Source: Acidaminococcus sp. (GTDB lineage: Bacteria; Bacillota; Negativicutes; Acidaminococcales; Acidaminococcaceae). From it: 64,000 nt of DNA. Below the pieces are notes generated by a model that did no database searches, was not told the DNA's origin, and was given only the letters and a program-made list of their open reading frames with translations. A program made the translations under genes and the position numbers. The stretch covers positions 2,624,946-2,688,945 of the forward strand of contig JAKVOM010000001.1 in NCBI GenBank assembly GCA_022482815.1, written 5' to 3'. Of the stretch, positions 8,323 through 63,620 are shown in pieces. Positions within the stretch are counted from its first letter, which is position 1, and each line of letters begins with the position of its first letter.

Positions 8323-8891
8323 GAGTTCCTCCTAGCAGTTTGACCAACCCGTTCTCTTCCATTATACTGGAAAGCAGACAAACGAATTCTTGTATAACTT
8401 TATCTTAATATTATATATGATTATGAGGTTGGGTGCAAATTTGTGCCGCCTGCTTTGCAGGCGGACAAGTGATAAAGTGGTTAGTGAGTAGTGGTTAGCA
8501 CCATAGTGCGGATAGCTACTTAGACGGATTCTTGAGAAAGAATGCTGCTGGCAGAAAGTTATAGCCTTCGGCAGAGAGGGACATCTTCCACCGCAAGCGG
8601 TCCCCCTCGTTCAATTTCACTCCGTGACGTTGAAGGAGGTCACTATAAGGCTAGTGCCCCAATTAGAGGTATAGTTTGGATTTAATAGGCGCTTTTTCGT
8701 ACCCATTCCTGTTATCGTACTGAATACCCACCGCAAGCGGTCCCCCTCTTATTTTCTGAAAGAAAATAAGAGGCTGGTGCTTCTATTTTTGTATATTCTG
8801 CGCAAACCGCTGCGCGGTTTGCTTCCTACAGAGCGACCGGCGACCCGCGACCAACCTGCGGCCTGCGTTTTTTACAAAGGAGATTTTTATT
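8323..8891. repeat. Intergenic repeat block (R2, R1-like, R3)
   Basis: R2 at about 8471-8583 (GTGGTTAGTGAG ... CTTCGGCAGAGAGGGA), an imperfect CGTGACGTTGAAGG palindrome at 8608-8640, an R3 copy at 8694-8775 with the AAAATAAGAGG hairpin, and a GCAAACCGC/GCGGTTTGC hairpin at 8803-8824. The rqcH ribosome site (AAAGGAG) closes the region. No gene or clear promoter seen. Confidence 0.6.
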
Positions 8892-11053: not shown

Positions 11054-11281
11054 CTTTTTATTTTGTTTCTGATGGACTCTGCTGCAAGACAGCCGCAGGG
11101 ACGCGAAGGGCCAGGCTGAGGCCACGAAGTCGTACAAAAAAACGTACGTCGAGTGGTCGCAGGCTGGTCCGACAAAGTCCATGCCGCTGGATTCTGCAGA
11201 GGACAGCGGAAACGTCCTTAGAAAAAACTCTGCCTCACGATGCGTGCGAGACATGTCGAACACCATCGTGAGGCAGGTGCC
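11054..11281 (-). repeat. R5 two-hairpin element, copy A
   Basis: Reading with the upstream aminopeptidase gene (minus strand), the element starts six bases after the stop codon. Hairpin 1: TGCCTCACGAT pairs with ATCGTGAGGCA around a loop containing TCGACATGTCTCG, and a run of six T follows. Hairpin 2 (about 11074-11204) is a long imperfect stem with arms of about 60 bases and loop GTACGTTTTTTTGTAC. It ends in the A-rich box TCCATCAGAAACAAAATAAA. See copies at 41484, 42436, 44057 and 59777. Confidence 0.75.
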
Positions 11282-11286
11282 TTTAA

Positions 11287-12660
11287 TTATTTACTTTCGA
11301 AAAATACCTTATACGCCAAATAAGTCTCGTACGCATCCGCCTTGCTCAACAAATCATACGGTGAATGCATGCTCAGCATAGCCGTGCCGCAGTCCACGAC
11401 TTCGCAGCCCCAATCGGCCATCATGAAGGCGATGGTGCCACCGCCGCCCTGGTCGACTTTACCGAGTTCGCCGATCTGCCAGGCTACGCCGTTCTTATCA
11501 AAGAGCGTGCGGATTTTCTGCATGAATTCGCTGTTGGCGTCGTTGCTGCCTGCTTTACCGCGGATACCGGTAAATTTGGTCAGTGCAATGCCGTAGCCGC
11601 AGAGAGAAGAGTTATCCTTTTCCGTGACTTCCGGGAACATAGGATCGAGGCAGCTGTTGACGTCGCCGGAAAGCATCTCACTGTTTTCCATGGTTTCGTA
11701 GAAATCAAGCAGAGATGGTTTGCCCTGCAGGGACAGCATCTTCATGACAAATTTCACAAAGTAGGAAGACTGCATGCCCGTATTGCCGTAGGAACCAATC
11801 TCTTCTTTATCCGTAAAGAGCGCTACCTGCGTCTTTTCGCCGGGTGCGGCGTTCATAATGCCTTCCATGTTTGCGTAAGAGCAGACGCGGTCATCCTGGC
11901 CATAGGCAGCAATGAGGGAACGGTCAAAACCTACATCGCGGCTTTTCATGGCCGGTACAAGTTCCAGTTCAGCCGAAGTGAAGTCTTCTTCTTCAATGCC
12001 ATAGGTTTCCTTGAGAAGCTTCATGACAGCATCCTTGACTTTCTCATCCTTATCGGAATTGGAGCCGATGACAGCCTGCAGCTGTTCGCCAGTCACACCT
12101 TCGGCAAGGGTCTTTTTCATCTGGTCCTGTGCCATATGGATAAGCAAATCCGTAATATAGAAGACCGGGTCGTTTTCATCCATGCCGATGTTAATATTCA
12201 GTTTCTTTCCGTCCTTGGTATAGATCACACCAATGAGGGCCAGCGGAATGCAGGGCCACTGGTATTTCTTGATGCCGCCGTAATAGTGGGTACGGAAATA
12301 GACAAGTCCATCCTGCTCATGGACAGGATTACCTTTGAGATCGAGGCGCGGTGCATCAATGTGGGAGCCCACGATTTTCATGCCATCGTGAACCGGCGCT
12401 TTGCCGATGACAGCCAGGATAATGGACTTGCCTTTCTGGTTCCAGTATACTTTGTCCCCTGCCTTGAGTTCCTTATAATCATAGAGAGGACGGAAGCCGG
12501 CCTTTTCGGCACGCTCCTGGATGAGGCTGACGGCCAGCCGTTCCGTTCTTGCCGTATCAAGAAATGCTTTATATTTTTCACCGTATGCCATAACGGCATC
12601 GCGTTCTGCCTGATCCATTCTTGCCCAGGCAGATTCTTTTCTGCTATAAGGTTCTTTCAT
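11287..12660 (-). CDS. M18-family zinc aminopeptidase
   Basis: Cytoplasmic metallo-aminopeptidase of the M18 family (aspartyl aminopeptidase group), removing N-terminal, often acidic, residues from peptides. Metal-site motifs are visible: GSHIDAPRLDLK (His/Asp), DDRVCSYANMEG, TDKEEIGSYGN (catalytic and metal Glu), DVNSCLDPMF, and a C-terminal MHSPYDLLSK His. Length 457 is normal. TAGGAGG lies ahead of ATG 12658-12660. It is a single-gene unit whose 3' end runs straight into R5 copy A, whose first hairpin with its T-run is the only terminator candidate. Confidence 0.9.
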   Translation of the reverse strand: MKEPYSRKESAWARMDQAERDAVMAYGEKYKAFLDTARTERLAVSLIQERAEKAGFRPLYDYKELKAGDKVYWNQKGKSIILAVIGKAPVHDGMKIVGSHIDAPRLDLKGNPVHEQDGLVYFRTHYYGGIKKYQWPCIPLALIGVIYTKDGKKLNINIGMDENDPVFYITDLLIHMAQDQMKKTLAEGVTGEQLQAVIGSNSDKDEKVKDAVMKLLKETYGIEEEDFTSAELELVPAMKSRDVGFDRSLIAAYGQDDRVCSYANMEGIMNAAPGEKTQVALFTDKEEIGSYGNTGMQSSYFVKFVMKMLSLQGKPSLLDFYETMENSEMLSGDVNSCLDPMFPEVTEKDNSSLCGYGIALTKFTGIRGKAGSNDANSEFMQKIRTLFDKNGVAWQIGELGKVDQGGGGTIAFMMADWGCEVVDCGTAMLSMHSPYDLLSKADAYETYLAYKVFFESK

Positions 12661-31165: not shown

Positions 31166-33973
31166 TTATTTAAGCACTTCTACGCAGCGATGGCACAGGG
31201 TCGGATGTTCTGCGTCCTGGCCAACCGTCTCGTCGTATCTCCAGCAGCGTTCACACTTATGGCCTTCGGCCGGGGAAACTTTGACCGTCAGATCCTGACG
31301 ATCCGTCTTTTCTCCGCCTTCCGTACCTTCATGCAGTGCTACCTGGGAAACAATGAGCAGCGTTGGCAGGTCTTTTTCTACGCGGCGCAGTACTTCCAGT
31401 GCTTCGCCGTCTGCATAGAGATCAACCTTAGCATCAAGGGAATTACCAATCTTCTTGTCGCGGCGGGCATTTTCCAGAATCTTCATGATTTCGCCGCGGA
31501 CTTTGATGAAGCTGTTCCACTTCTGCAGTTCATCTTTGTTGATGTATTCCTCATGCAGCTTCGGCCATTCGAGCAGCAGTACGCTGACAGGTGCATCGGC
31601 CGGCTTCTTGAGCTGCTGGTAAACTTCTTCCATCGTGAAGCTCAGGATTGGCGTCAGCATGACCATGAGGTCATACAGGATTTCATACATAGCCGTCTGA
31701 GCGCTGCGGCGCTTCGGATCATTCGGCTTGCTCGTATACAGACGGTCCTTGATGATATCCAGATAGAAGGAGCTCATGTCTACCGTGCAGAATTCGTGAA
31801 CAGCATGATACACCAGATGGAAATCATACTCTTCATACGCATTCTTTACGTACTTCTTCAGTTCCTGCAGGCGCATCAGTGCGTACTGATCCAGTTCTTC
31901 CATGTCGGCGAAAGCTACTTTGTCCTTTTCATAGTCAAAGTCATAGGTGTTGCCGAGGATGTAACGGATGGTGTTGCGAATCTTACGGTATACTTCGGCA
32001 ATCTGTTTCAGGATCAGCTTGGAGATTCTGACATCGCCCTTGTAGTCTACGGAAGATACCCACAGACGAACAATATCGGCACCGTAATCCTTGATAACAT
32101 CTTCCGGAGCGACCGTGTTGCCGACGGATTTACTCATCTTGCGGCCTTCACCGTCAAGAGTATAGCCGTGAGTCAGAACGGCACGGTACGGAGCCTTGCC
32201 CGTCGTAGCGACACTCGTGAGCAGCGAAGACTGGAACCAGCCTCTGTGCTGGTCACTGCCTTCGAGGTACATATCAGCCGGCCAGCCCAGTTCGGGGCGT
32301 CTTCTCAGTACGCCGCGGTGCGTTGAACCGGAGTCGAACCAGACGTCCATGATATCGCTTTCCTTGCGGAAATGCGTGCAGCCGCACTTCGGGCACTTCG
32401 TGCCTTCCGGCAGCAGTTCTTCGGCGGTATGCTTCCACCAGGCGTCGGTGCCCTCTTTTTCCACAATCTTAGCCAGATGTTCAATCGTTTCCGGCGTAAT
32501 CAGCGGTTCACCGCAGTCTTCGCAGTAATAAATAGGAATAGGCACGCCCCAGACACGCTGACGGGAAATACACCAGTCATGACGGTCAGCAACCATGTTG
32601 TAAATGCGCTGACGGCCCCAGCTCGGAATGAACTGAACGTCGTTGTTGATGACTTTCAAAGCCTGATCACGGAAGCCGTCTACGGAAGCAAACCACTGCT
32701 CGGAAGCACGGTAAATGATCGGGTTCTTGCAGCGCCAGCAGTGAGCATACTGGTGGTGAATGTTTTTCTTGCCCAGAAGAGCGCCATTTTCAGCCAGATG
32801 TTTAATAACAAGGCCATTGCAGTCAAAGACGAATTTGCCTTTGAAGAGTTCGCCGGCTTCGTCAGTGTAGCAGCCTTTTTCATCGACCGGGCAGAGAATG
32901 TCCAGTTTATATTTGAGGCCCGTCAGATAGTCGACATCGCCGTGGCCAGGAGCGGTATGGACAGCGCCGGTACCGGTTTCCAGGTCAACGTAGTCGGCCA
33001 GTACAACGAGGGACTTTCTATGGTTGTATTCAGGGAACGGATGCTCGCATTCGGCATATTCAAAGTCGCGGCCTTTCGTTACACCGAGAACCGGGCCGAA
33101 GGTAATGCCGCATTCACTGGCAACCTTGTCAATCAGTTCCTTTGCCATGATGAGAGCTTCACCCTGGTATTCGACCCAGGCATATTCAAAGTCGGGGTTC
33201 AGGGCAATAGCGACGTTGGCCGGAATGGTCCAGGGCGTCGTGGTCCATACGACAAAGTAAGCTTTCATGCCCTTGGCAGCTTCCGGAGTAAGGCCCTTAT
33301 CCTTGACGAGAGGCATCTTTACATAGATGGTCGGTGTCTTCTGATCCGCATATTCGATTTCGGCTTCGGCCAGAGCAGTTTCGCAGTGAGGGCACCAGTA
33401 AACGGTCTTTTTGCCCTTGTAGATGTAGCCCTTGTTGGCCATGTCGCCGAAAACGCGAAGCTGATCAGCTTCGGTAAGCGGATTAAGGGTCAGATAGGGA
33501 TTATCCCAGTCACCGATCACGCCCAGACGCTTGAAGCCTTCGCGCTGCTCGTTGATCCATTTGTGGGCATAATCATTGCACATCTTTCTGAGTTCCAGAG
33601 CGGAAATCTTATGACGGTCTACACCGGTAGCCTTCAGGCAGGCATGTTCAATCGGCATGCCGTGCGTATCCCAGCCGGGAACGTAAGGCGTGTCAAAGCC
33701 CTGTTGATACTTATATTTAATGATGATATCTTTCAGAATCTTATTCAGTGCGTGACCAATATGAATCTTGCCGTTCGCATACGGAGGGCCATCGTGCAGA
33801 ATGAACTTCTTATGGCCGGCATGCTGTTTCAGTTTCAGATGATACATGTCATGGTCCTGCCAGAACTTCAAAAAGTCCGGTTCACGTTTGGGCAGACCGG
33901 CACGCATCGGGAAATCGGTCTTCGGCAGATTCAGGGTAGCGCTGAACTTGTCGTTTTCTTTTTCTTTACTCAC
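31166..33973 (-). CDS. ileS: Isoleucyl-tRNA synthetase
   Basis: Class Ia synthetase, 935 residues. Motifs: GPPYANGKIHIGHALNKILKD (HIGH), the editing domain around residues 200-380 (VVWTTTPWTIPANVAIAL), GRKMSKSVGN (KMSKS), and a C-terminal zinc finger CERCWRYDETVG...CHRC. The start is GTG at 33971-33973: GGAGG lies eight bases upstream, directly behind the leader terminator. The frame is open through the whole leader but that part encodes the T-box, not protein. Confidence 0.95.
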   Translation of the reverse strand: MSKEKENDKFSATLNLPKTDFPMRAGLPKREPDFLKFWQDHDMYHLKLKQHAGHKKFILHDGPPYANGKIHIGHALNKILKDIIIKYKYQQGFDTPYVPGWDTHGMPIEHACLKATGVDRHKISALELRKMCNDYAHKWINEQREGFKRLGVIGDWDNPYLTLNPLTEADQLRVFGDMANKGYIYKGKKTVYWCPHCETALAEAEIEYADQKTPTIYVKMPLVKDKGLTPEAAKGMKAYFVVWTTTPWTIPANVAIALNPDFEYAWVEYQGEALIMAKELIDKVASECGITFGPVLGVTKGRDFEYAECEHPFPEYNHRKSLVVLADYVDLETGTGAVHTAPGHGDVDYLTGLKYKLDILCPVDEKGCYTDEAGELFKGKFVFDCNGLVIKHLAENGALLGKKNIHHQYAHCWRCKNPIIYRASEQWFASVDGFRDQALKVINNDVQFIPSWGRQRIYNMVADRHDWCISRQRVWGVPIPIYYCEDCGEPLITPETIEHLAKIVEKEGTDAWWKHTAEELLPEGTKCPKCGCTHFRKESDIMDVWFDSGSTHRGVLRRRPELGWPADMYLEGSDQHRGWFQSSLLTSVATTGKAPYRAVLTHGYTLDGEGRKMSKSVGNTVAPEDVIKDYGADIVRLWVSSVDYKGDVRISKLILKQIAEVYRKIRNTIRYILGNTYDFDYEKDKVAFADMEELDQYALMRLQELKKYVKNAYEEYDFHLVYHAVHEFCTVDMSSFYLDIIKDRLYTSKPNDPKRRSAQTAMYEILYDLMVMLTPILSFTMEEVYQQLKKPADAPVSVLLLEWPKLHEEYINKDELQKWNSFIKVRGEIMKILENARRDKKIGNSLDAKVDLYADGEALEVLRRVEKDLPTLLIVSQVALHEGTEGGEKTDRQDLTVKVSPAEGHKCERCWRYDETVGQDAEHPTLCHRCVEVLK

Positions 33974-33986
33974 CAGGAACACCTCC

Positions 33987-34022
33987 AAAAAAATAAGCCC
34001 CGTCCCCGCAAGGGACGAGACT
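33987..34022 (-). terminator. Leader terminator of ileS T-box
   Basis: Minus strand: AAGTC/CGTCCC pair with GGGACG/GGCTT followed by seven T. It competes with the antiterminator that includes the T-box sequence just upstream. Confidence 0.88.
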
Positions 34023-34234
34023 TTTACCCGTGGTACCACCCTCATGACAGGACGTTTCCTGCCACTTTCAAATGAAATAACGCTCATCAGACGGACCGTC
34101 CTACTGCTGGTTCGGCGGTCAGCTCGGGAGTGATTTTCCTTTCTGCATCCTCCTGCCCGGGCTCTCACTCTCCCCCGAGTCGCTGCACCGGCTGCATCAG
34201 TACTGTCTCCGTCATGGCTATTTTCAATTTTTAC
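33987..34234 (-). promoter_or_regulatory. T-box leader (tRNA-Ile sensing) of ileS
   Basis: The minus strand carries AGGGTGGTACCACGGGT (34026-34042), a canonical T-box sequence whose NCCA-binding bulge pairs with uncharged tRNA. A Stem I region of about 110 bases precedes it; the codon ATC followed by A (34132-34134) in GGAAAATCACTCC is the likely specifier for isoleucine. Uncharged tRNA-Ile should stabilise the antiterminator and allow ileS transcription. Confidence 0.92.
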
Positions 34235-34240
34235 CCGTCT

Positions 34241-34269
34241 ATTATACACTTATAGGATGCTACCGTCAA
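34241..34269 (-). promoter_or_regulatory. ileS promoter
   Basis: Minus-strand TTGACG (34264-34269), 17 bases, TATAAT (34241-34246), directly ahead of the T-box leader. Confidence 0.88.
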
Positions 34270-38871: not shown

Positions 38872-39429
38872 TCATTTTTCTTTTTTTTCGGCGATGAGTG
38901 TAATGTAATACGCTGCGATGATTTCGGGTGTCTCCTTAAAGCCATTTTTGATCCACAGGGAGACAACCTGAGCAAAGGAAGCCACGTAAAAGCCCGCGGC
39001 GTAGTCCCTGGGGATATCTGGCGGAAAGAGTTCTTTTGTGCCTTCAAAGACTTTTTCCAGCTGTTTTTTAAAGTATTTCAAAAAGATATCTTCGCTTTCC
39101 CCCGAAAAGAGGTTCGTCAAGTCGTTTTTTCTTTCCTTGAGGTGATAGAGCAGATGGGTCATGCGGCTCGCCAGGGTCTCGGGCTGCGAAGAAAAATCGT
39201 GATGTGCTTCCCGCTCGAGCACGGAGGAAAAAACGTGTCCGAAGATGTCTTCGCACATTTGATTCAGCAGGTCGTCTTTCGTCTCGAAGTGGGCATAAAA
39301 GGTCGTCCGTCCCACATCGGCCTCGTCAATGATGTCCTGCACGGAAATATGATGATAATGCTTTTTGGCAAGGAGCGTGCTGAAGGCCCTGAATATGGCC
39401 TGCTTTGTTTTCCGTTGTCTCCGGTCCAT
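38872..39429 (-). CDS. TetR-family repressor
   Basis: 185 residues from ATG 39429 (AAGGGGG ahead): DRRQRKTKQAIFRAFSTLLAKKHYHHISVQDIIDEADVGRTTFYAHFETKDDLLNQM is the TetR helix-turn-helix, followed by a C-terminal ligand domain. An upstream open frame is not used. Divergent from the P1B ATPase; a palindrome at 39535-39547 in the shared spacer is its probable operator. Confidence 0.9.
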   Translation of the reverse strand: MDRRQRKTKQAIFRAFSTLLAKKHYHHISVQDIIDEADVGRTTFYAHFETKDDLLNQMCEDIFGHVFSSVLEREAHHDFSSQPETLASRMTHLLYHLKERKNDLTNLFSGESEDIFLKYFKKQLEKVFEGTKELFPPDIPRDYAAGFYVASFAQVVSLWIKNGFKETPEIIAAYYITLIAEKKEK

Positions 39430-39534
39430 CGGGATTCCCCCTTTTCCGAATAAAATCAGCTTTTTGTTCCGTAACGAATAGAAGGCGCAAACTGCTTCTT
39501 GTAAGCACCTTTGGAACTGGATACTATTTTTATA

Positions 39535-39562
39535 GAACAAGTTGTTCGTTATTAAATATAAT
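39535..39562 (+). promoter_or_regulatory. Operator and promoter of P1B ATPase
   Basis: The perfect palindrome GAACAA-G-TTGTTC (39535-39547) lies where the -35 box should be; TATAAT follows at 39557-39562, 38 bases before the ATPase start. Binding of the TetR product here would block the ATPase promoter. Confidence 0.7.
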
Positions 39563-39599
39563 GTATCTATTCCTGCATGGAAAAACAAGGAGAAAATCA

Positions 39600-41471
39600 A
39601 TGAAGCACCTCACCGATTATTTTACGGATGAAGCAAAATTCCGGCTGGTCCGGATTGGTTTTTCCGGGATTGCGCTCGTCATGAGCCTGTTGGAATGGAC
39701 TGTACTTCCCGGCGGACTGGATATGGCGTGGATAGCGATTTTTCTCTGCAGCGTGCCCATCGTTACGGGCGCCGCAAAGGCTCTCGTCACAAAGCACGAT
39801 ATCACGGCTGACGTCCTTGTTTCCCTCGCCCTCATCGGTTCACTCATAGCCAGAGAATTTTTTGCAGCCGGCGAAGTCGCTTTTATCATGGAAATCGGCT
39901 CTGCTCTGGAAGACTACACCTCCTCCAAGGCAAGGAAGGGCATTCAAGGGCTCATAAACCTCATGCCGAAGCTGGCCCGGGTCCGCCGTAACGGAGAAGA
40001 AAAGCGCATCCTCGTAGAAGACGTCCAAAAAGGCGATACGGTGATCGTGCTCGCCGGTGAAACCATACCGACCGACGGAAAGATTATCAAAGGAATTACC
40101 TCTCTCGACCAGTCCGCCATGACCGGCGAATCCCTTCCCGTGGATAAGACTGTCGGAGACGATGTGCTCAGCGGTTCCCTCAATAAAGAAAATGTATTTG
40201 AATACGTGGCCACGGCTGAAGCCGCCGATAGTGCCCTGCAGCGAATGATTGATCTTGCCGAAAAAGCGGATGAAAACAAGGCCCCTATCGTTTCCCTGGC
40301 TGACCGCTGGGCAGCGTGGCTTGTCATAGCGGCTTTTACCACGGCCATTCTGACTTTCCTGCTCAACTGGTTTATCCTGGGAAATACGTCGGGCGCTTTT
40401 CTTCGAGCCGTCACTGTCCTGATTGTAGTCTGTCCCTGCGCCTTTATCCTCGCAACGCCGACAGCCATCATCGCGGGCATCGGGAACGCTGCTAAGTACG
40501 GCATGATCATCAAGTCCGGTGAATCGCTGCAGCGGCTCAGTACCATTGATACAGTTGCTTTTGATAAAACGGGCACCCTCACTTACGGGAAGCTCAGCAT
40601 TGAGAAAGTGCAGCCGTTTGATTCCATCTATTCGGAGAAAGACATTCTGACTCTTGCCGCCATTGCAGAAGCCCGCTCCGAGCACCCTATCGGGAAGGCT
40701 ATCTGCGCGGCTGCGGATACGAACGGGCAAGCTTCCTCCTATACCATTTTTTCGGGCAAGGGCATCGCTGCTACTTATGAAGGAAAAAAACTTCTTGCGG
40801 GCAAAAAGGAATTTCTCGTGGAAAAAGGCATTTCCTTTAATACAGAATGGACGCGTGACGAAAAGGCCAGTGGTTCCACTATGGTCTATCTCGCCGTAGA
40901 CGGAAAAGCCGTTGGATCCATCTCCCTTACGGATACAATCCGCGAAAGTGCTGCCCCGACCATAAAGAAACTGCAGGCCATGCAAATTGAACCCATTTTA
41001 CTCACCGGAGATAATCCATCGGCCGCAATGAAAATTGCCGAGAACGTTCATATTGCCAATTACCGCAGCGGACTTCTTCCCGAAGATAAACAAAAAATAA
41101 TCCGTGAATATCAGGGCGCAGGTCACAAAGTCTGCATGATCGGCGACGGCATCAACGACGCCGTCGCACTCCGTACCGCCGACTCCGCCATTGCCATGGG
41201 AGGCATCGGCTCGGACATTACCATTGAATCTTCTGACGTGGTGCTCGTGCAGGACGATATCAGCCGGATTCCCTATTTGCTCCATCTCTCCCAAAAGGTT
41301 CTCCAGAAGATCCAGGCTAATATCGTCCTGTCCCTCATCATTAATCTGATTGCCACGATTCTTGCCGCGACCGGCGTGCTGAATCCCATTGTGGGGGCGC
41401 TGGTGCATAATGTGGGGTCTGTGTTTGTAATAGTGAACTCTTTGAAGCTTTTATCGTTGAAGGAAGAATAG
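39600..41471 (+). CDS. P1B-type heavy-metal-transporting ATPase
   Basis: 623 residues from ATG 39600 (AAGGAG eight bases ahead). No N-terminal metal-binding domain. Visible are the actuator TGES (DQSAMTGESLP), the transmembrane metal motif VCPCAFILATPTA (CPC), the phosphorylation site AFDKTGTLTYG, SEHPIGKAI (HP motif), GDGINDAVAL and a last helix pair containing HNVGSVFVIVNSLKLL. CPC occurs in both Cu and Zn/Cd/Pb exporters; the His-Asn-Val-Gly-Ser segment is not diagnostic to me, so the metal is open. TetR rather than CsoR or SmtB control is unusual. R5 copy B begins 12 bases after the stop. Confidence 0.9.
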   Translation: MKHLTDYFTDEAKFRLVRIGFSGIALVMSLLEWTVLPGGLDMAWIAIFLCSVPIVTGAAKALVTKHDITADVLVSLALIGSLIAREFFAAGEVAFIMEIGSALEDYTSSKARKGIQGLINLMPKLARVRRNGEEKRILVEDVQKGDTVIVLAGETIPTDGKIIKGITSLDQSAMTGESLPVDKTVGDDVLSGSLNKENVFEYVATAEAADSALQRMIDLAEKADENKAPIVSLADRWAAWLVIAAFTTAILTFLLNWFILGNTSGAFLRAVTVLIVVCPCAFILATPTAIIAGIGNAAKYGMIIKSGESLQRLSTIDTVAFDKTGTLTYGKLSIEKVQPFDSIYSEKDILTLAAIAEARSEHPIGKAICAAADTNGQASSYTIFSGKGIAATYEGKKLLAGKKEFLVEKGISFNTEWTRDEKASGSTMVYLAVDGKAVGSISLTDTIRESAAPTIKKLQAMQIEPILLTGDNPSAAMKIAENVHIANYRSGLLPEDKQKIIREYQGAGHKVCMIGDGINDAVALRTADSAIAMGGIGSDITIESSDVVLVQDDISRIPYLLHLSQKVLQKIQANIVLSLIINLIATILAATGVLNPIVGALVHNVGSVFVIVNSLKLLSLKEE

Positions 41472-41483
41472 GCGCAAATAAAA

Positions 41484-41710
41484 GCACCTCAGATAATCTG
41501 GTGCTCGGCTGGCCTCGCACGCATCTTATCTGAGAGCTTTTTTAAGGGAAACTTTTTACGTCCAGCGCAGAAATATGGGCGCATCTACTGTGTCAGGCAG
41601 ACTTAGGAACCACTCGATATACTATTTTTGTATTATCTCGGGTTCCTAAGTCTGCCTTCCTTGTATCTGCACCCATCTTCTGTGCTGTCCATAAAAAGAA
41701 AATAAAAAGA
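41484..41710 (+). repeat. R5 two-hairpin element, copy B
   Basis: Hairpin 1: CTCAGATAA (41488-41496) pairs with TTATCTGAG (41526-41534) around GTGCTCGGCTGGCCTCGCAC, followed by six T. Hairpin 2: CAGCGCAGAA...GGGCGCA pairs with TGCACCC...TTCTGTGCTG, and GGCAGACTTAGGAACC (41596-41611) pairs perfectly with 41641-41656 around CACTCGATATACTATTTTTG. It ends in the A-rich box GTCCATAAAAAGAAAATAAA. Most complete copy. Confidence 0.8.
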
Positions 41711-41993: not shown

Positions 41994-42434
41994 ATGGAAC
42001 TCGCTAGCGAATTACTTAGGAATATCGGGACACTCAGTCGTTCTGTTCAGTCCATGATGGACGTAAAATTTCGGTCGTACGGTCTGAAGCGCGGGTAGTT
42101 TGTCTTCCTCACGCGCATCTGCGAAGCGCCGGGTATCTGTCAGGCCGATCTGACGGACGCCTGCAATGTAGATAAGGGCACGACGGCCAAGGCGGTAAAA
42201 AAATTGGAAGACGCCGGGCTCATTTATAGGCATCGGGAAGACTCCGATAAAAGAATGTGGCACTTGTCCCCCACTGCAGAAGGCAGCAAACTTTATAAAG
42301 AACTCATTGAAGAAGAGAATCGGCAGATTGCAGCGGGCCTTCGAGGCTTCTCTCCGAAAGAAACGCGGGAACTACTGAAGCTTGTAAAGAAATTACAGGA
42401 AAATGTGCAGCTTGATTGGCTGGAAAATCACTGA
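41994..42434 (+). pseudogene. MarR-family regulator interrupted by an in-frame TAG
   Basis: One continuous frame of 147 codons encodes a MarR protein: MELASELLRNIGTLSRSVQSMM, SYGLKRG, then TAG at 42096-42098, then FVFLTRICEAPGICQADLTDACNVDKGTTAKAVKKLEDAGLIYR, HREDSDKRMWHLSPTAEGSKLY and a C-terminal dimer helix. The family usually has Gln at the stop position (RGQFVFL), so CAG to TAG would explain it by one change. Apart from this codon the gene, its promoter and operator look intact, so decay is recent, or the codon is read through, or it is a sequencing error. Confidence 0.85.
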
Positions 42435-42435
42435 A

Positions 42436-42580
42436 GGCACCTGCCTCTCCCTGGTGCTCGGCTGGCCTCGCACGCATTTCGAGGCAGAGCTCTTTATAAG
42501 GTAACTTTTTCTGTCCAGTGCAGAAATCTGGGCGCATCTACTGTGTCAGGCAAACTTAGGAACCACTCGATATACTATAA
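42436..42580 (+). repeat. R5 two-hairpin element, copy C, truncated
   Basis: Begins one base after the marR stop. Hairpin 1: TGCCTC (42441-42446) pairs with GAGGCA; loop GTGCTCGGCTGGCCTCGCAC is identical to copy B. Of hairpin 2 only the 5' arm remains (GTCAGGCAAACTTAGGAACCACTCGATATACTAT); the 3' arm is replaced by other repeat DNA. Confidence 0.75.
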
Positions 42581-42790
42581 CTTCTTTCATATTTTTATAT
42601 TCGCTGCAAACCGCTCTGTGGTTTACTTCCACAGGCGGGCGGCTGGCTGAAAAGCTGAACGGATGATAATGGAGAACAAGCGGTGAAGAAATGATTAGCT
42701 ATTTCTTCACCGCTTTCTGTCTTCTTCATGATAAAATGAGATTTAAAAGTACCACTCGAAAAATAGTTACGTCATGAATGGGAGACCAAC
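42581..42790. other. Short intergenic with R6 hairpin
   Basis: GCAAACCGC/GCGGTTT-like hairpin near 42605-42630 and an R6 hairpin at 42679-42714 (AGCGGTGAAGAAAT pairs with ATTTCTTCACCGCT) followed by TTCTGTC, a weak T-run. Confidence 0.55.
42679..42722 (+). terminator. R6 hairpin, weak terminator
   Basis: The stem is nearly identical to the purC terminator; the following TTTCTGTCTTCTT is a poor T-run. It would end transcripts from marR. Confidence 0.6.
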
Positions 42791-43396: not shown

Positions 43397-44053
43397 ATGG
43401 AACCTGTTTATTATATGCCCGGCTGCGCTTTTGAACTTTATAAAAAGGAAACGTCTGAAAAGTTTCTGACTTATTTGAGGAAGCATTTTCCCAATATCCA
43501 GCGGTATGATACATGCTGCCGCCACCCATCGACACTTCCTGAAGACTCTCGTGTTATTTATGTCTGCTCCAGCTGCGCCATGCGGCTGCGGGACCAGGAT
43601 GCGACACTGAAGCTTCAGTCCTTATGGAACGTGATTCATACGTTCGGAGACTATCCCCTGCCCGACTACCATGGCAGAAAAGTGAGCCTCCATGATTCCT
43701 GCACGGCCAAATCAACGCCCATTATCCATCAGGACGTCCGCCAGCTTCTCAAAGATCTGAACTTTGACCTCGTTGAGGTAAAGGCTCATGGAATGAATTC
43801 CCAGTGCTGCGGAGACAGCCTGTATCCCGACCATTCACCGGAGGAAGTGCTTGCGGCTATGAAAAACAGGGCCGCTTCCATGCCCTGTGAAGACGTCGTC
43901 GTGTACTGCATCTCCTGTATGAATGCCATCAAGCGCGGCGGCAGGAGGCCTCTTCTCTTGACGGATCTGGTGCTGGGAGAAGAGACGGTGCCGCCAAGTG
44001 AGAATATAGATGAGTGGTATGGGAAATTAGTTGAGTATATTGAAAAGCACTGA
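43397..44053 (+). CDS. CCG-domain iron-sulfur protein
   Basis: 218 residues with the Cys-rich (CCG) signature of heterodisulfide reductase subunit B and GlpC-type proteins: YYMPGCAFELY, YDTCCRHPS, YVCSSCAMRL, SLHDSCTAKS and GMNSQCCGDSL, then VVYCISCMNA. Two CX(n)CCGX(m)CxxC-like modules bind unusual [4Fe-4S] or noncubane clusters in HdrB. This lone copy may be a redox enzyme subunit whose partners are elsewhere. R5 copy D starts three bases after its stop codon. Confidence 0.8.
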   Translation: MEPVYYMPGCAFELYKKETSEKFLTYLRKHFPNIQRYDTCCRHPSTLPEDSRVIYVCSSCAMRLRDQDATLKLQSLWNVIHTFGDYPLPDYHGRKVSLHDSCTAKSTPIIHQDVRQLLKDLNFDLVEVKAHGMNSQCCGDSLYPDHSPEEVLAAMKNRAASMPCEDVVVYCISCMNAIKRGGRRPLLLTDLVLGEETVPPSENIDEWYGKLVEYIEKH

Positions 44054-44056
44054 AAA

Positions 44057-44170
44057 GGCACTTGCCTCATGCTGGCGTTCGGCATGTCTCGCGCTCATCA
44101 TGAGGCAGAGCTCTTTACAAGGAAGTTTTAGTTGTTCTCCGAAGAATCCATCAGAAACAAAATAAAAAGA
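44057..44170 (+). repeat. R5 two-hairpin element, copy D, hairpin 2 deleted
   Basis: Hairpin 1: TGCCTCATG (44063-44071) pairs with CATGAGGCA (44099-44107); loop GCGTTCGGCATGTCTCGCGC. A short link leads directly to the A-rich box TCCATCAGAAACAAAATAAA, identical to copy A, so the long second hairpin is missing. Confidence 0.75.
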
Positions 44171-59776: not shown

Positions 59777-59985
59777 CTTTTTTTAATTATGTTTCAGACG
59801 TGGTCAGATGCAAGGAAGGCGGGTGTGGGGCCTGGAAGATGTACACAAATAGTACCTCGACAGGTCACGCACCCGCCTGACACAGCAGATGGCCGCAAAT
59901 GAGGCATAGGCTAAAAAGCTTCTTTAATGTGAACTGGGGCTTGAGACGACGAGACTTGTCGAGGAGCGAAAGCCCCCAGGCGACT
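59777..59985 (-). repeat. R5 two-hairpin element, copy E
   Basis: Minus strand. Hairpin 1: CTGGGGGCTT (59970-59979) pairs with AAGCCCCAG (59934-59942), loop containing CTCGACAAGTCTCG. Hairpin 2: GGCGGGTG pairs with CACCCGCC and CCTG with CAGG, around TCGAGGTACTATTTGTGTAC. The constant words GTGTCAGGC and GCCTTCCTTGCATCTG flank the second stem as in copy B. Ends in CTGAAACATAATTAAAAAAA. It follows the terminator of autotransporter 2. Confidence 0.7.
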
Positions 59986-60013: not shown

Positions 60014-60058
60014 ATGCGAAAAAACGACCCCATTGCTTTTCCCAAGCAATGGGGTCGT
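60014..60058 (-). terminator. Terminator after autotransporter 2
   Basis: CGACCCCATTGCTT (60026-60039) pairs perfectly with AAGCAATGGGGTCG, loop of five; the minus strand ends in TTTTTTCG. Confidence 0.92.
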
Positions 60059-60100
60059 CGCATTTCATCAAATCAGCGCAATTTGTGCGCTGACTTTCCA

Positions 60101-63100
60101 TCAGAACGTCCACTTCACCAGCGCTCTCACGCTGGCACCTTCCTCTTTACCTATCCAACCGCGTAACGACAGGTCATAAATCATATTCTTTCCGCCTTTG
60201 CCTTCCCAGCCGAGTTCCATCATGCCGCTGCTGCCCTGGACGGACGGGCTCGGTGTATCTCCGCCGCCAAAGTGAGCAGTGCTTTCGTTATCGAATTCGT
60301 ACTGGTAAGCGGCCCCCACGTACCAGGATCCGAGATCCTTTTCATCGTGGATGTAGCGCGTGCCGATGCGAATCTTACTGCTGTCGACATCGTCGAATTC
60401 GTAGTTTTCGCCCGTAGCCAGTTTCGCGTCGAAGCTGTCTTGATGAGCGTAGAGATAACGGAGGTAGGTATCGAGACGGACGTTGTCACCGTAGTTATGA
60501 ACCTTACCGAAGCCCAGATGGAATCCGTAATACGGCGTACGATAATCGTAGTCTTCATGAACTCTTGTAGTGCCAATCAAGAGGTCATTGGAATTGTAGT
60601 CGGCGCTGACGCGGCCGCCGCGGACACTGCCATCGATATACCAGCCGCTGTTGAAGTTCTTCTGTGCGAAGATACCGCCGCCGATGTAGTGGGCATTACC
60701 GTTAGCATGGATACCGCCGTCAATATAACTGTCATAATCGCCGTTGCCGTATTCCACGAACGGCCCAACGAGGAACGAACCCGACTTGTCTTCATACCGT
60801 CTCGCAATGCCGAGAACAGTGTTCCAGCCGTCGCTCTCGACGTGGGAACCGGTATTGTAGCGCATATTCTTGTAGGCTGCGGCCACAAACGGTGTCCACG
60901 TCCAGTCGGAATTGAGTTTCACTGCCTTTGCAGCATTCCAGAGGGCGCTGTCCACAAGGAAGTCACCGCCGCTGGCAACGAGAGCTGCCGTGTAAGTCGG
61001 CGTCTCCACAAGGGATTTCGTCTGCTCGTTTAATGTCGTGTCTTCCGATTCCGGAACAATCAATTTAATATAGTCACCGGAATCATTTTCGGTGCGGGTC
61101 TCAATAGCCGCCGTAGACGTTGTGGAAACGCCCTGATATACGGTGCCGGAAACGGCTGTGGATAAGGTGCCCGTCGTATCGATGGCACCGGAAAGCAGCG
61201 TAATTTCTTCGCCCGGGTTCAGTACGACGGAACCGTTTACATAAGCCGTTGCTGTAAGGCCCGTAGACGGAATGGTCGTCGTTCCCGACACAGTGAGCAT
61301 CGTGTCGCCGTTCGAAGTTCCCGCGGGAACATAGAAGTTGATACTATCAAAATTCTGGATGGAGTCAGCCGTACTGTTCAGGCCTGTCACATTCAGCGTG
61401 TTGCCGGTCACGACATCGCCGGATCCGGTCGTATAGCCGCCAAAGAGGTCGCCTACATCTACGGTTCCGTCGAGGGTCACCGTGTTGTCTGTGGCATCAC
61501 CGGATACCGTATAACCGCCGTAAATGTCATCCGTGGTAGAAGCGCTGATCGTGACTGTGTTGTCAGAGGCATCACCTGTTCCCGAATAACCGCCATACAC
61601 ATCATTCAGTGTGGAATCTGTGACTGTAACCGTATTATCCGTGGCGTCACCCGAATCTCTTACATAACCTCCATAAACCATTCCATATTCACTCGCCACA
61701 GTCGAAGAAGTGAGTTCGACGGTATTCCCCGAAGCATTCCCGGACATTGCAGCGCCGCCATACACCATTACTGCAGTCGTATTCGTGGCAATCAGCGTGT
61801 TATTCGTGGCATTTCCATCAACCGCCCAACCGCCACCATATTCTCCGGAATCAGAGAAAGTACTGACAACATTGTCGAGGATAACCGTGTTTTCCGCAGC
61901 ATCCCCATTGCTGTATGATTCACCGCCTATAACTCCTGTCATGTCAGTAGAGGAAACTGACACTGTATTTCCTGTTGCGTTTCCAGAATACGTATAACCG
62001 CCAATGGCAAATCCATCATACCCATCCATCGTTGCAGAATCGCTAATAGTGACCGTGTTACCCGAAACGTCACCGGAACTTGACACATAACCGCCATAGA
62101 CGTTAGCTGATTCCGATTCGCTGATGCTTACCGTGTTATTCTCTGCATTCCCAGTAACAGCACGGCCTCCATAAACATAAACAGCGTCAGAGTTACTGCT
62201 GAGGCTGACGACATTGTCTGAAGCATCACCTGATGACGCCGTGTAGCCGCCGTAAATGCCTTCCGATACGGAGGAGGATGTCAGCGTTACCGTGTTACCC
62301 GTGGCATCCCCTTCTGTTTTGACGTATCCGCCATAGGCATTTGCCGATACAGTAGACGATGTCAGAGTTACGCTGTTATCTGATGCGTCACCTGTTCTCG
62401 ACCAACCGCCATAGACACTTTCACCAATGCTGGAATCGTTGATAACTACACTGTTACTTGTGGCGTCCCCAGTCCCCGATACGTAGCCACCATAGACGCT
62501 GCCGTCTACCGTGGAACTATCCACCACGGAAACCGTATTGTCAGATGCATTCCCGCTGTCCCCCCAACCGATTGCCCAAGCGCCATAGACGTCTTCTGTT
62601 GCATTGGAATTCGTAAGGGTGACACTGTTTTCTAAAGCATCGCCATTATTACCGCCAAAGCCGCCGACCACTAACATGGTCAAGGTGGAATTTGTGGCGG
62701 TTACATTGTTTCCTGTTGCGGTCCCTTGTACCACTTTATAACCGCCGTAAACAGGGATATTCACCGTGGAATCGGTGATGATGACAGTATTATTTTCAGC
62801 ACTTCCGTACATAGCTCTCCCACCATAGACACCCGAATCAATATTAGAGGCTCTGCGGGCAGAAATAGTGGAATTATTTATAATAATACTGTTATTTGCT
62901 GCGACTCCCTCAACCGTATAACCGCCAATGATGTTGTAATTTCCTGACACATTGGAATTTGTAAGACTAATACTGTTATTCGTCGCGTTGCCGACACCAG
63001 AACCGTTCGTGACGGATTCGTATACATAGCCGCAGATTACTCTGCCGAACAGGGTGGAATTCGTAGCGGTAATACTGTTTCCTATCGCGCTGCCGCCTAC

Positions 63101-63388
63101 AATCGAATCCGCATAGCTGCCAAACATGTTGCCTCTAGTGGTAACGTTGTCCAGGGTGATAGAACTATTCAGGACATTAGGATAATCGGTAGTCGAAGGC
63201 TCAATAGCAATGGAAGTCCACATTCCATCCGTAGCATAAATTGTTGTATTCGAATAAGACAATTGGTCGCCCGAATAACCTATGACTGTGGTTGCGTAGC
63301 CTGTCGAAGCACAAAGAGGAATTGTCCCCATACAAATCACACCCACCAAAATCGCCTTTTGGGCTGCATGACTCACCCAACGTTTCAT
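60101..63388 (-). CDS. Classical autotransporter with beta-helix passenger, paralogue 2
   Basis: 1095 residues from ATG 63388 (GGGAGG just ahead; the open frame further upstream is leader). Signal peptide MKRWVSHAAQKAILVGVICMGTIPLCASTGYA. The passenger has about 20 imperfect repeats of 24-28 residues of the form GDASDNTVTLTSSTV...VYGGY, rich in Ser, Thr, Asn and Gly with almost no Lys or Cys. The C-terminal barrel (WTPFVAAAYKNMRYNTGSHVESDGWN ... GASVRALVKWTF) ends in Phe, the usual BAM recognition signal, and shares FVEYGNGDYDSYI, GSVRGGRVSADY and YDYRTPYYGFH with paralogue 1. Probably a surface adhesin. Confidence 0.92.
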   Translation of the reverse strand: MKRWVSHAAQKAILVGVICMGTIPLCASTGYATTVIGYSGDQLSYSNTTIYATDGMWTSIAIEPSTTDYPNVLNSSITLDNVTTRGNMFGSYADSIVGGSAIGNSITATNSTLFGRVICGYVYESVTNGSGVGNATNNSISLTNSNVSGNYNIIGGYTVEGVAANNSIIINNSTISARRASNIDSGVYGGRAMYGSAENNTVIITDSTVNIPVYGGYKVVQGTATGNNVTATNSTLTMLVVGGFGGNNGDALENSVTLTNSNATEDVYGAWAIGWGDSGNASDNTVSVVDSSTVDGSVYGGYVSGTGDATSNSVVINDSSIGESVYGGWSRTGDASDNSVTLTSSTVSANAYGGYVKTEGDATGNTVTLTSSSVSEGIYGGYTASSGDASDNVVSLSSNSDAVYVYGGRAVTGNAENNTVSISESESANVYGGYVSSSGDVSGNTVTISDSATMDGYDGFAIGGYTYSGNATGNTVSVSSTDMTGVIGGESYSNGDAAENTVILDNVVSTFSDSGEYGGGWAVDGNATNNTLIATNTTAVMVYGGAAMSGNASGNTVELTSSTVASEYGMVYGGYVRDSGDATDNTVTVTDSTLNDVYGGYSGTGDASDNTVTISASTTDDIYGGYTVSGDATDNTVTLDGTVDVGDLFGGYTTGSGDVVTGNTLNVTGLNSTADSIQNFDSINFYVPAGTSNGDTMLTVSGTTTIPSTGLTATAYVNGSVVLNPGEEITLLSGAIDTTGTLSTAVSGTVYQGVSTTSTAAIETRTENDSGDYIKLIVPESEDTTLNEQTKSLVETPTYTAALVASGGDFLVDSALWNAAKAVKLNSDWTWTPFVAAAYKNMRYNTGSHVESDGWNTVLGIARRYEDKSGSFLVGPFVEYGNGDYDSYIDGGIHANGNAHYIGGGIFAQKNFNSGWYIDGSVRGGRVSADYNSNDLLIGTTRVHEDYDYRTPYYGFHLGFGKVHNYGDNVRLDTYLRYLYAHQDSFDAKLATGENYEFDDVDSSKIRIGTRYIHDEKDLGSWYVGAAYQYEFDNESTAHFGGGDTPSPSVQGSSGMMELGWEGKGGKNMIYDLSLRGWIGKEEGASVRALVKWTF

Positions 63389-63620
63389 AAAGCCTCCCTT
63401 CAACTCCAGAAAAACCTGCACAGATCGGCGTTCACGTCGCTTCGGCAGCATCTTCTTTGCGCCGGACGTGGGTGCCCACTCCTCTTCATTTGCCGTTAAT
63501 CTATGCTTAGATTTGTATTTTATTCCCCGTAAATTTTTTCTTGTATTTATTATAACACTCATTATTAATTTATAGTATGAAAATAATGATAATTTATATT
63601 GAAAAGTATTTCACGGAATA
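63389..63620. other. Leader and promoter region of autotransporter 2
   Basis: The minus strand has an extended -10 box TGTTATAAT (63549-63557). The leader of about 150 bases contains GGCACCCACGTCCGG...GACGTGAACGCC (63428-63477) as a possible hairpin. No gene; upstream DNA is AT-rich. Confidence 0.55.

Follow-up and report, generated by a model that had tools for sequence, protein, structure and literature searches.

Dispersed two-hairpin repeats with exchanged arms and constant loops behind genes of an Acidaminococcus genome

The DNA analysed here, called the window below, is a stretch of 64,000 nucleotides that corresponds to bases 2624946-2688945 of one contig of 3,057,042 bases (3.06 Mb) from a genome of Acidaminococcus, a genus of gut bacteria. 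Among its genes there is an aminopeptidase gene (11287-12660), whose protein has its best named match in A. provencensis with 87% identity, and an ileS frame (31166-34249) that starts with a T-box leader (34008-34224, minus strand). An initial annotation of the window had listed five copies of a two-hairpin element, and related sequence is present in all five places. The complete copies are those at 11066-11284 (minus strand) and 41480-41698 (plus strand). The parts of the five copies are the following:

11223..11284, minus strand: hairpin 1, arms class GCCTCAY, 2 nt past the aminopeptidase stop codon (gene at 11287-12660)
11066..11212, minus strand: outer stem of class TTTCCGCTGTCCTCTGCAG and hairpin 2 of class ACGTAC
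41480..41541, plus strand: hairpin 1, arms class CAGATAA, 8 nt past the stop codon of frame 39405-41471
41552..41698, plus strand: outer stem of class CTTTTTCTGTCCGGCGCAG and hairpin 2 of class CTTAGGAACCACTCGATATAC
42433..42494, plus strand: hairpin 1, arms class GCCTCTC, overlapping the stop codon of a MarR-like frame (named by eye)
42505..42575, plus strand: outer stem and hairpin 2, of which only the 5' half is present
44054..44115, plus strand: hairpin 1, arms class GCCTCAY, directly behind the stop codon of frame 43397-44053
44116..44170, plus strand: shortened outer stem without hairpin 2, with the closing A-rich box (by eye)
60071..60094, minus strand: second type, first hairpin GTCAGCGC..GCGCTGA, six bases past the stop codon of frame 60101-63562
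60015..60064, minus strand: second type, terminator-like hairpin ACGACCCCATTGCTT..AAGCAATGGGGTCGTTTTTT
59933..59981, minus strand: second type, hairpin 1' with loop CTCCTCGACAAGTCTCGTCGTC, a loop pattern common to the congener G005
59795..59900, minus strand: second type, hairpin 2 of the GAGGTAC loop class

The copy at 42433-42575 has kept hairpin 1, and a palindrome of another family, D15, starts where the 3' half of hairpin 2 is lost. This other dispersed family (D15/D18) is found at window positions 42584-42635 and also at 8780, 26787 and 45976. The MarR-like frame (by eye, 41994-42436) contains an in-frame stop codon, and the element copy stands directly behind it. The copy that had been placed at 59777-59985 represents a second element type, whose true start is at 60094 as judged by eye; an element is indeed present there, but its two upstream hairpins had been overlooked.

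Starting from the stop codon, the order of the parts is hairpin 1, a short linker, and a long stem with internal loops that bears hairpin 2 on top. The two hairpins that had been proposed are there, but the second one is a small hairpin atop a long outer stem with arm classes of its own. Hairpin 1 is 62 bases long, with nearly constant ends (AAAGGCACC and GAGCTTTTT), a constant inner loop (TCGAC..GTCTCG or TCGGC..GCCTCG) and variable arms between the ends and the loop; the alignment of 47 copies has no internal gaps except in one copy. At least four clearly different classes of hairpin 1 arms can be distinguished, besides three main classes of the outer stem and three of hairpin 2, and these classes combine between copies. 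They were assigned by regular expressions, which left some copies as 'other', and in a few copies the hairpin 2 class may stem from the neighbouring unit. Hairpin 1 is at least 97% alike while the remainder is less than 70% alike in 20 pairs of copies (2 with a nested copy), and the reverse case, an unlike hairpin 1 with a like remainder, is given by 9 pairs (6 with nested copies). Moreover, a further palindrome lies inside the fixed 5' bulge of the outer stem in 10 of the 60 classed units (one of these was folded and measures 164 bases), and an extra palindrome on the 3' side is present in three of the 60. A lone hairpin 1 without hairpin 2, with perfectly paired ends AAAGGCACC..GGTGCCTTT, was also observed, at locus L023 1464-1526 (genome position 2711863).

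The element forms a repeat family of about 60 copies in this genome. A covariance model of hairpin 1 (R1) gave 63 matches, of which the three weak ones (1337115, 1506528 and 2741555, 36-38 bits) may be due to chance. With blastn, hairpin 1 of the 11054 copy gave 39 matches and hairpin 2 of the 41484 copy gave 29, some of these being the same palindrome in backward reading. The copies at 2368469 and 2374716 are 98-99% alike and have different genes in front; their upstream 60 nt share 51% identity, the mean of all pairs being 46%. Near-identity over the whole length occurs in only one pair of copies, which counts against recent movement. The copies are partly clustered, with 20 of 64 within 0.23 Mb (genome 1.68-1.91 Mb) near a sign change of the GC skew, a region that is probably the replication terminus.

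The position of the copies relative to genes was studied with 64 copies, that is, the 63 model matches plus the 59777 copy, judging coding frames by a simple codon-usage score. A co-oriented coding frame stands in front of 58 of the 64, and the median distance from its stop codon to the element is 5 nt among these 58. The distance is between -2 and +9 nt in 41 of the 64 copies and between -2 and +34 in 55. With the three weak matches removed, 55 of 61 copies remain behind a co-oriented frame and 39 of 61 at -2 to +9 nt; a first and cruder gene call had given 50 of 64 at -2 to +29 nt. The location at the 3' ends of genes, as the initial annotation had it, is borne out by these counts. Regarding the nine copies outside -2 to +34, that at 59777 has more hairpins in front, those at 288796 and 2995972 have a truncated element unit in front, and those at 1481533 and 1824038 lie 3 and 12 nt past a frame that failed the codon-usage score. 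The remaining four (1826157, 1839680, 1840988 and 2246379) have their best stop codon at a distance of 52 to 98 nt and count against the reading as mobile palindromes that is proposed below. The eight host genes that were checked are all different: amidohydrolase, dicarboxylate symporter, autotransporter, SbcC-like, PTS EIIC, glycosyl hydrolase, aromatic lyase and pyruvate kinase. The SbcC-like gene (L024 3088-4347, minus strand) has an element copy behind its own stop codon; relatives of such proteins cut DNA hairpins. Autotransporter-like C-terminal ends are repeatedly accompanied by the element (L021, L037, L035, L018, L096 and window 60101-63562), where the assignment was made by Pfam for L021 and by the last residues for the others, L096 being a weak match. 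L021 and L037 have the gene end and flank in common.

Outside this genome, the distribution of the element is patchy. The search of relatives by covariance model, which had been suggested as a check, found no further copies: R1 has no match in 60 relatives, 8 of them from the same genus. This absence by R1 alone is weak evidence, since the model misses the second type (0 matches in G005, with stricter filters). The loop pattern CTCGACNNGTCTCG occurs 16 times in the own genome and 12 times in G005, and among the 380 genomes of the class that were searched no other has more than two occurrences. A DNA query of the second type gave 54 matches in G005 (mostly partial), 2 in the own genome and none in the other seven of the eight Acidaminococcus genomes, in which more diverged element types may be present. 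G005 has the same loops with other arms, and its elements start shortly past stop codons in most of the starts inspected by eye. It seems to correspond to the rumen genome RUG14209, since locus L098, from that record, has a stretch in common with the end of G005 contig 37. Two of the 11 loci that the motif gave in G005 belong to genes with an element in the own genome as well, namely the aminopeptidase and an autotransporter-like gene, and these two could be old common insertions rather than recent movement. The symporter is a third gene with the element in both, found by searching from the own genome. In G005, a c-di-AMP riboswitch (L129 2408-2531, minus strand) was noticed upstream of a gene that bears an element and seems, by eye, to be NlpC-like.

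The same genes were also compared by eye in other species, which was done for three genes in several congeners, leaving out amidohydrolase loci L168-L171 and symporter loci L180-L182. Within six Acidaminococcus loci of the aminopeptidase, the 3' side has ordinary terminators in A. provencensis, A. intestini and A. fermentans, a hairpin next to an apparent insertion sequence in A. massiliensis, no close terminator in L101, and the element in L098. An ordinary terminator also follows the amidohydrolase in G003 and the SDF (dicarboxylate) symporter in G003, G001, G006 and G008.

Two alignments served for studying the pairing. A1 comprises hairpin 1 in 47 copies; 48 had been found by pattern in the loci gathered by then, one truncated copy was dropped, and the further R1 matches of the 63 are not part of it. 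A2 comprises hairpin 2 and the outer stem in 33 copies, that is, 32 of the 48 and the 59777 copy, and leaves out nested, truncated or long copies. Paired cells amount to 91.6% in A1, compared to 72.8% in shuffles and 32-61% with the partner slid, and to 95.2% in A2, compared to 76.1% and 31-51%. Two-sided changes occur at 16 of 25 pairs of A1 (202 such cells, 61.6 in shuffles) and at 30 of 40 pairs of A2 (273 cells, 85.9 in shuffles), where pairs and cells are counted over sequences, not events, and the copies are related. Two of five measures in each alignment are weaker: further pair types were equalled by 32 of 500 shuffles in A1 and 37 of 500 in A2, and the number of A1 pairs with a two-sided change by 19 of 500. 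The structure of the element is far above chance, and the covariation test that the initial annotation had called for upholds the matched arm changes in both alignments. Counted along a nearest-neighbour tree, A2 has 119 two-sided Watson-Crick changes and one-sided changes to 42 A·C, 18 G·U and 16 other mismatches, and A1 has 44 two-sided and 83 one-sided changes (23 A·C, 42 G·U and 18 other). The arms alone give 49 two-sided, 12 A·C, 8 G·U and 6 other changes for hairpin 2, and 27, 7, 5 and 3, respectively, for hairpin 1, with sense G·U and A·C about equal (8 to 12 and 5 to 7). The excess of A·C over G·U on the sense strand is significant only in A2 as a whole (p 0.003).

The two strands of the element do not fold equally well. 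With RNA energies, the strand opposite to the gene's sense strand has the more stable fold in 32 of 33 A2 copies, the mean difference being 16.9 kcal/mol; for hairpin 1 this holds in 37 of 47 copies, with a mean of 2.9 kcal/mol. DNA energies, tried on five sequences, give the same direction by 1 to 12 kcal/mol. The difference arises because the constant loops become tandem G·A on the opposite strand. When flanked by C-G, tandem G·A pairs are known to be stable in both RNA and DNA. In hairpin 1, the constant TC/TC loop turns into tandem G·A on the opposite strand in 46 of 47 copies, and GA faces GA in the apical loop of hairpin 2 in 31 of 33. As a control, unpaired letters were shuffled among unpaired columns. 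The strand difference then drops to 2.7 kcal/mol, and in each of the 32 copies used it was larger than in the control of that copy. The asymmetry is repeated in G005, with different arms: all 20 distinct segments of hairpin 1 and all 4 segments of hairpin 2 show it. This strand asymmetry via tandem G·A is a new observation that goes beyond the initial annotation. It fits folded RNA and folded DNA alike and does not discriminate between them.

Known families and candidate partner enzymes were also considered. Within the window and 60 loci, no Rfam family is found inside the copies at gathering score, in agreement with the earlier remark that no named RNA family is recognisable; at a loose threshold, weak matches well below their gathering scores overlap the copies. 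A retron-like template, which had been put forward as a possibility, is unsupported: a PF00078 search of the own genome gave two reverse transcriptase genes, neither of them of a retron, and both adjoin group II intron RNA domains. A partnership with group II introns was rejected too, since introns are near only 2 of 54 element loci scanned (L012 and L020), which makes no rule, and no match to the catalytic domain V was found within the copies scanned. At L020 (1-1265) there are two tandem group II intron copies, seemingly too short for an enzyme gene, which end close to an element copy on the opposite strand. The own genome also has six PF01797 genes, of IS200 type by length and one sequence read. 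An IS200 transposase as partner was discarded: such genes are also present in 6 of 8 congeners, including ones without elements, and no R1 match lies within the loci of the six own genes. An origin from phages or plasmids was dropped after empty searches of IMG/VR with three exact patterns, of plasmids by blastn with one copy and of phages by blastn with another copy. The exact first-type pattern had no match in the GTDB 220 contigs either, where records near the window may be missing.

We think that these repeats are non-autonomous mobile palindromic elements settling at the transcription terminators of genes, a proposal to which we give an even chance of being right. A mobile palindromic element was one of three guesses of the initial annotation, and the data on dispersal, modules and nesting favour it. 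Mobility is suggested because copies stand at different genes, are nested, exchange modules and are present in some species only. The position and orientation of the copies point to the terminator as a target or as a place that tolerates insertion, and arms that change in compensation around constant loops suggest that a folded single strand is recognised, the asymmetry indicating which one. In such a process, a putative enzyme acting in trans would recognise the loops and the lengths of the stems in the folded bottom strand, leaving the arm sequence free to vary provided that pairing holds. Insertion would take away or displace the native terminator, and hairpin 1 would then terminate the transcript and make the insertion harmless to the host. 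On the sense strand, hairpin 1 comprises an A-tract, a stem and a T-run and can therefore act as a terminator.

An unlikely alternative, in our opinion, is that the element works in the 3'-UTR of the sense strand, as a strong terminator or by stabilising the RNA, and is selected on host genes and spread by gene conversion. The copies are nearly always directly behind genes and co-oriented with them, and the A-tract, stem and T-run of hairpin 1 suit this role, although a terminator scan marks hairpin 1 of the 11054 copy and not that of the 41484 copy. The selection for RNA structure that had been read from the compensated changes is disfavoured as sense RNA in A2, where the opposite strand folds better and G·U are fewer than A·C (18 to 42), but the counts are reversed in hairpin 1 as a whole (42 G·U to 23 A·C), which fits sense RNA there and counts against mobile palindromes. 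Against this alternative, the sense strand has the less stable fold in 32 of 33 A2 copies and in 37 of 47 of hairpin 1, the searches of 7 of the 8 congeners gave no element, with plain terminators behind the compared genes in several of these, and the role needs neither nested palindromes nor module swaps.

Unlikely as well, and placed after it, is a structured non-coding RNA transcribed from the strand opposite to the host gene, whose G·A loops would be protein or ligand sites. The better fold of that strand by about 17 kcal/mol with RNA energies, its dependence on the positions of the loop letters and its repetition in the second species argue for it, as do the 42 sense A·C changes of A2 (G·U on that strand) compared to 18 sense G·U. 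However, no promoter-like site was found on either strand in the two window copies scanned, the 3' flanks vary between copies as judged by eye, the gene on the far (3') side has no constant orientation, and Rfam recognises no family at gathering score.

It is still more doubtful that template switching in replication (quasi-palindrome correction) keeps the arms paired without any selection on structure. The 119 two-sided Watson-Crick changes of A2 do outnumber its one-sided ones, but in A1 one-sided changes are not rarer (83 to 44). Moreover, template switching would erase internal mismatches too, and these are constant in nearly all copies, with the same loops recurring in the second species. 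Clustered DNA-uptake or other dsDNA protein sites, palindromic by coincidence, are hardly credible: the placement behind genes resembles that of the uptake signals within terminators described in PMC2267715, but the arms are wholly different between copies and a duplex site would keep its sequence.

The proposal of mobile elements at terminators could be taken further, to a shape-addressed mobile DNA in which the putative enzyme would read only the tandem G·A loops and the fixed stem lengths of the bottom strand, with arms freely exchanged. It would then be a third system of ssDNA hairpins besides IS200/IS605-REP and integron attC, moving from terminator to terminator. We offer this extension tentatively, as a somewhat unlikely one.

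Concerning known systems, that which works most like this element would be EFAR of Enterococcus, and we do not claim membership in EFAR or SPRITE. EFAR, reportedly the subject of work by De Gregorio and others in 2009, is said to be about 170 bp long, with two stem-loops and a variable assembly of sequence types, and to insert into stem-loop targets, most of the target being lost. Compared by features, not by sequence, both are dispersed and palindromic with two independent stem-loops, and a variable assembly of modules is seen here too. The empty sites of EFAR are said to be stem-loops that persist in part at the ends of the element; the candidate counterparts here are terminators in several congeners at three genes, seen in other species only. 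We know of no description of stop-codon adjacency, strand asymmetry or tandem G·A loops for EFAR. Integron attC sites lie directly behind stop codons, have paired variable arms and are active as bottom strand. The likeness comprises the stop-codon position and the paired variable arms, and the bottom strand is favoured by folding here; the present element, however, is dispersed behind chromosomal genes and far longer, and R boxes are not seen by eye. The bcr1 repeat of Bacillus cereus is likewise a clade-restricted structured repeat thought to be mobile. It is not known to have stop-codon adjacency or arm classes. REP/RAYT systems have a ssDNA hairpin as substrate. Like the element here, REP/BIME with RAYT transposases are dispersed extragenic palindromes, but REP are 20-40 bp long according to PMC3733652, where EFAR of Enterococcus is listed as a MITE, and the present element is much longer and without an identified RAYT gene. 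In Streptococcus pneumoniae, according to PMC3049150, SPRITE is terminator-like and enriched near gene 3' ends, and BOX is modular; insertion of the pneumococcal SPRITE, BOX and RUP repeats into one another is mentioned in PMC10969869. SPRITE forms one duplex of 18 bp that has a T-rich tract (PMC3049150), whereas here there are two or more hairpins with exchanged arms. No paper on the present element was found in searches limited to an open-access library.

Bacterial palindromic repeats are usually described by their sequence, whereas in the element of Acidaminococcus the sequence is exchanged and the shape is kept. The shape is kept in about 60 copies and in a second species with a clear preference for one strand, which makes recognition of a folded single strand directly testable. 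Besides, the finding suggests that mobile DNA can replace a genome's terminators at dozens of genes.
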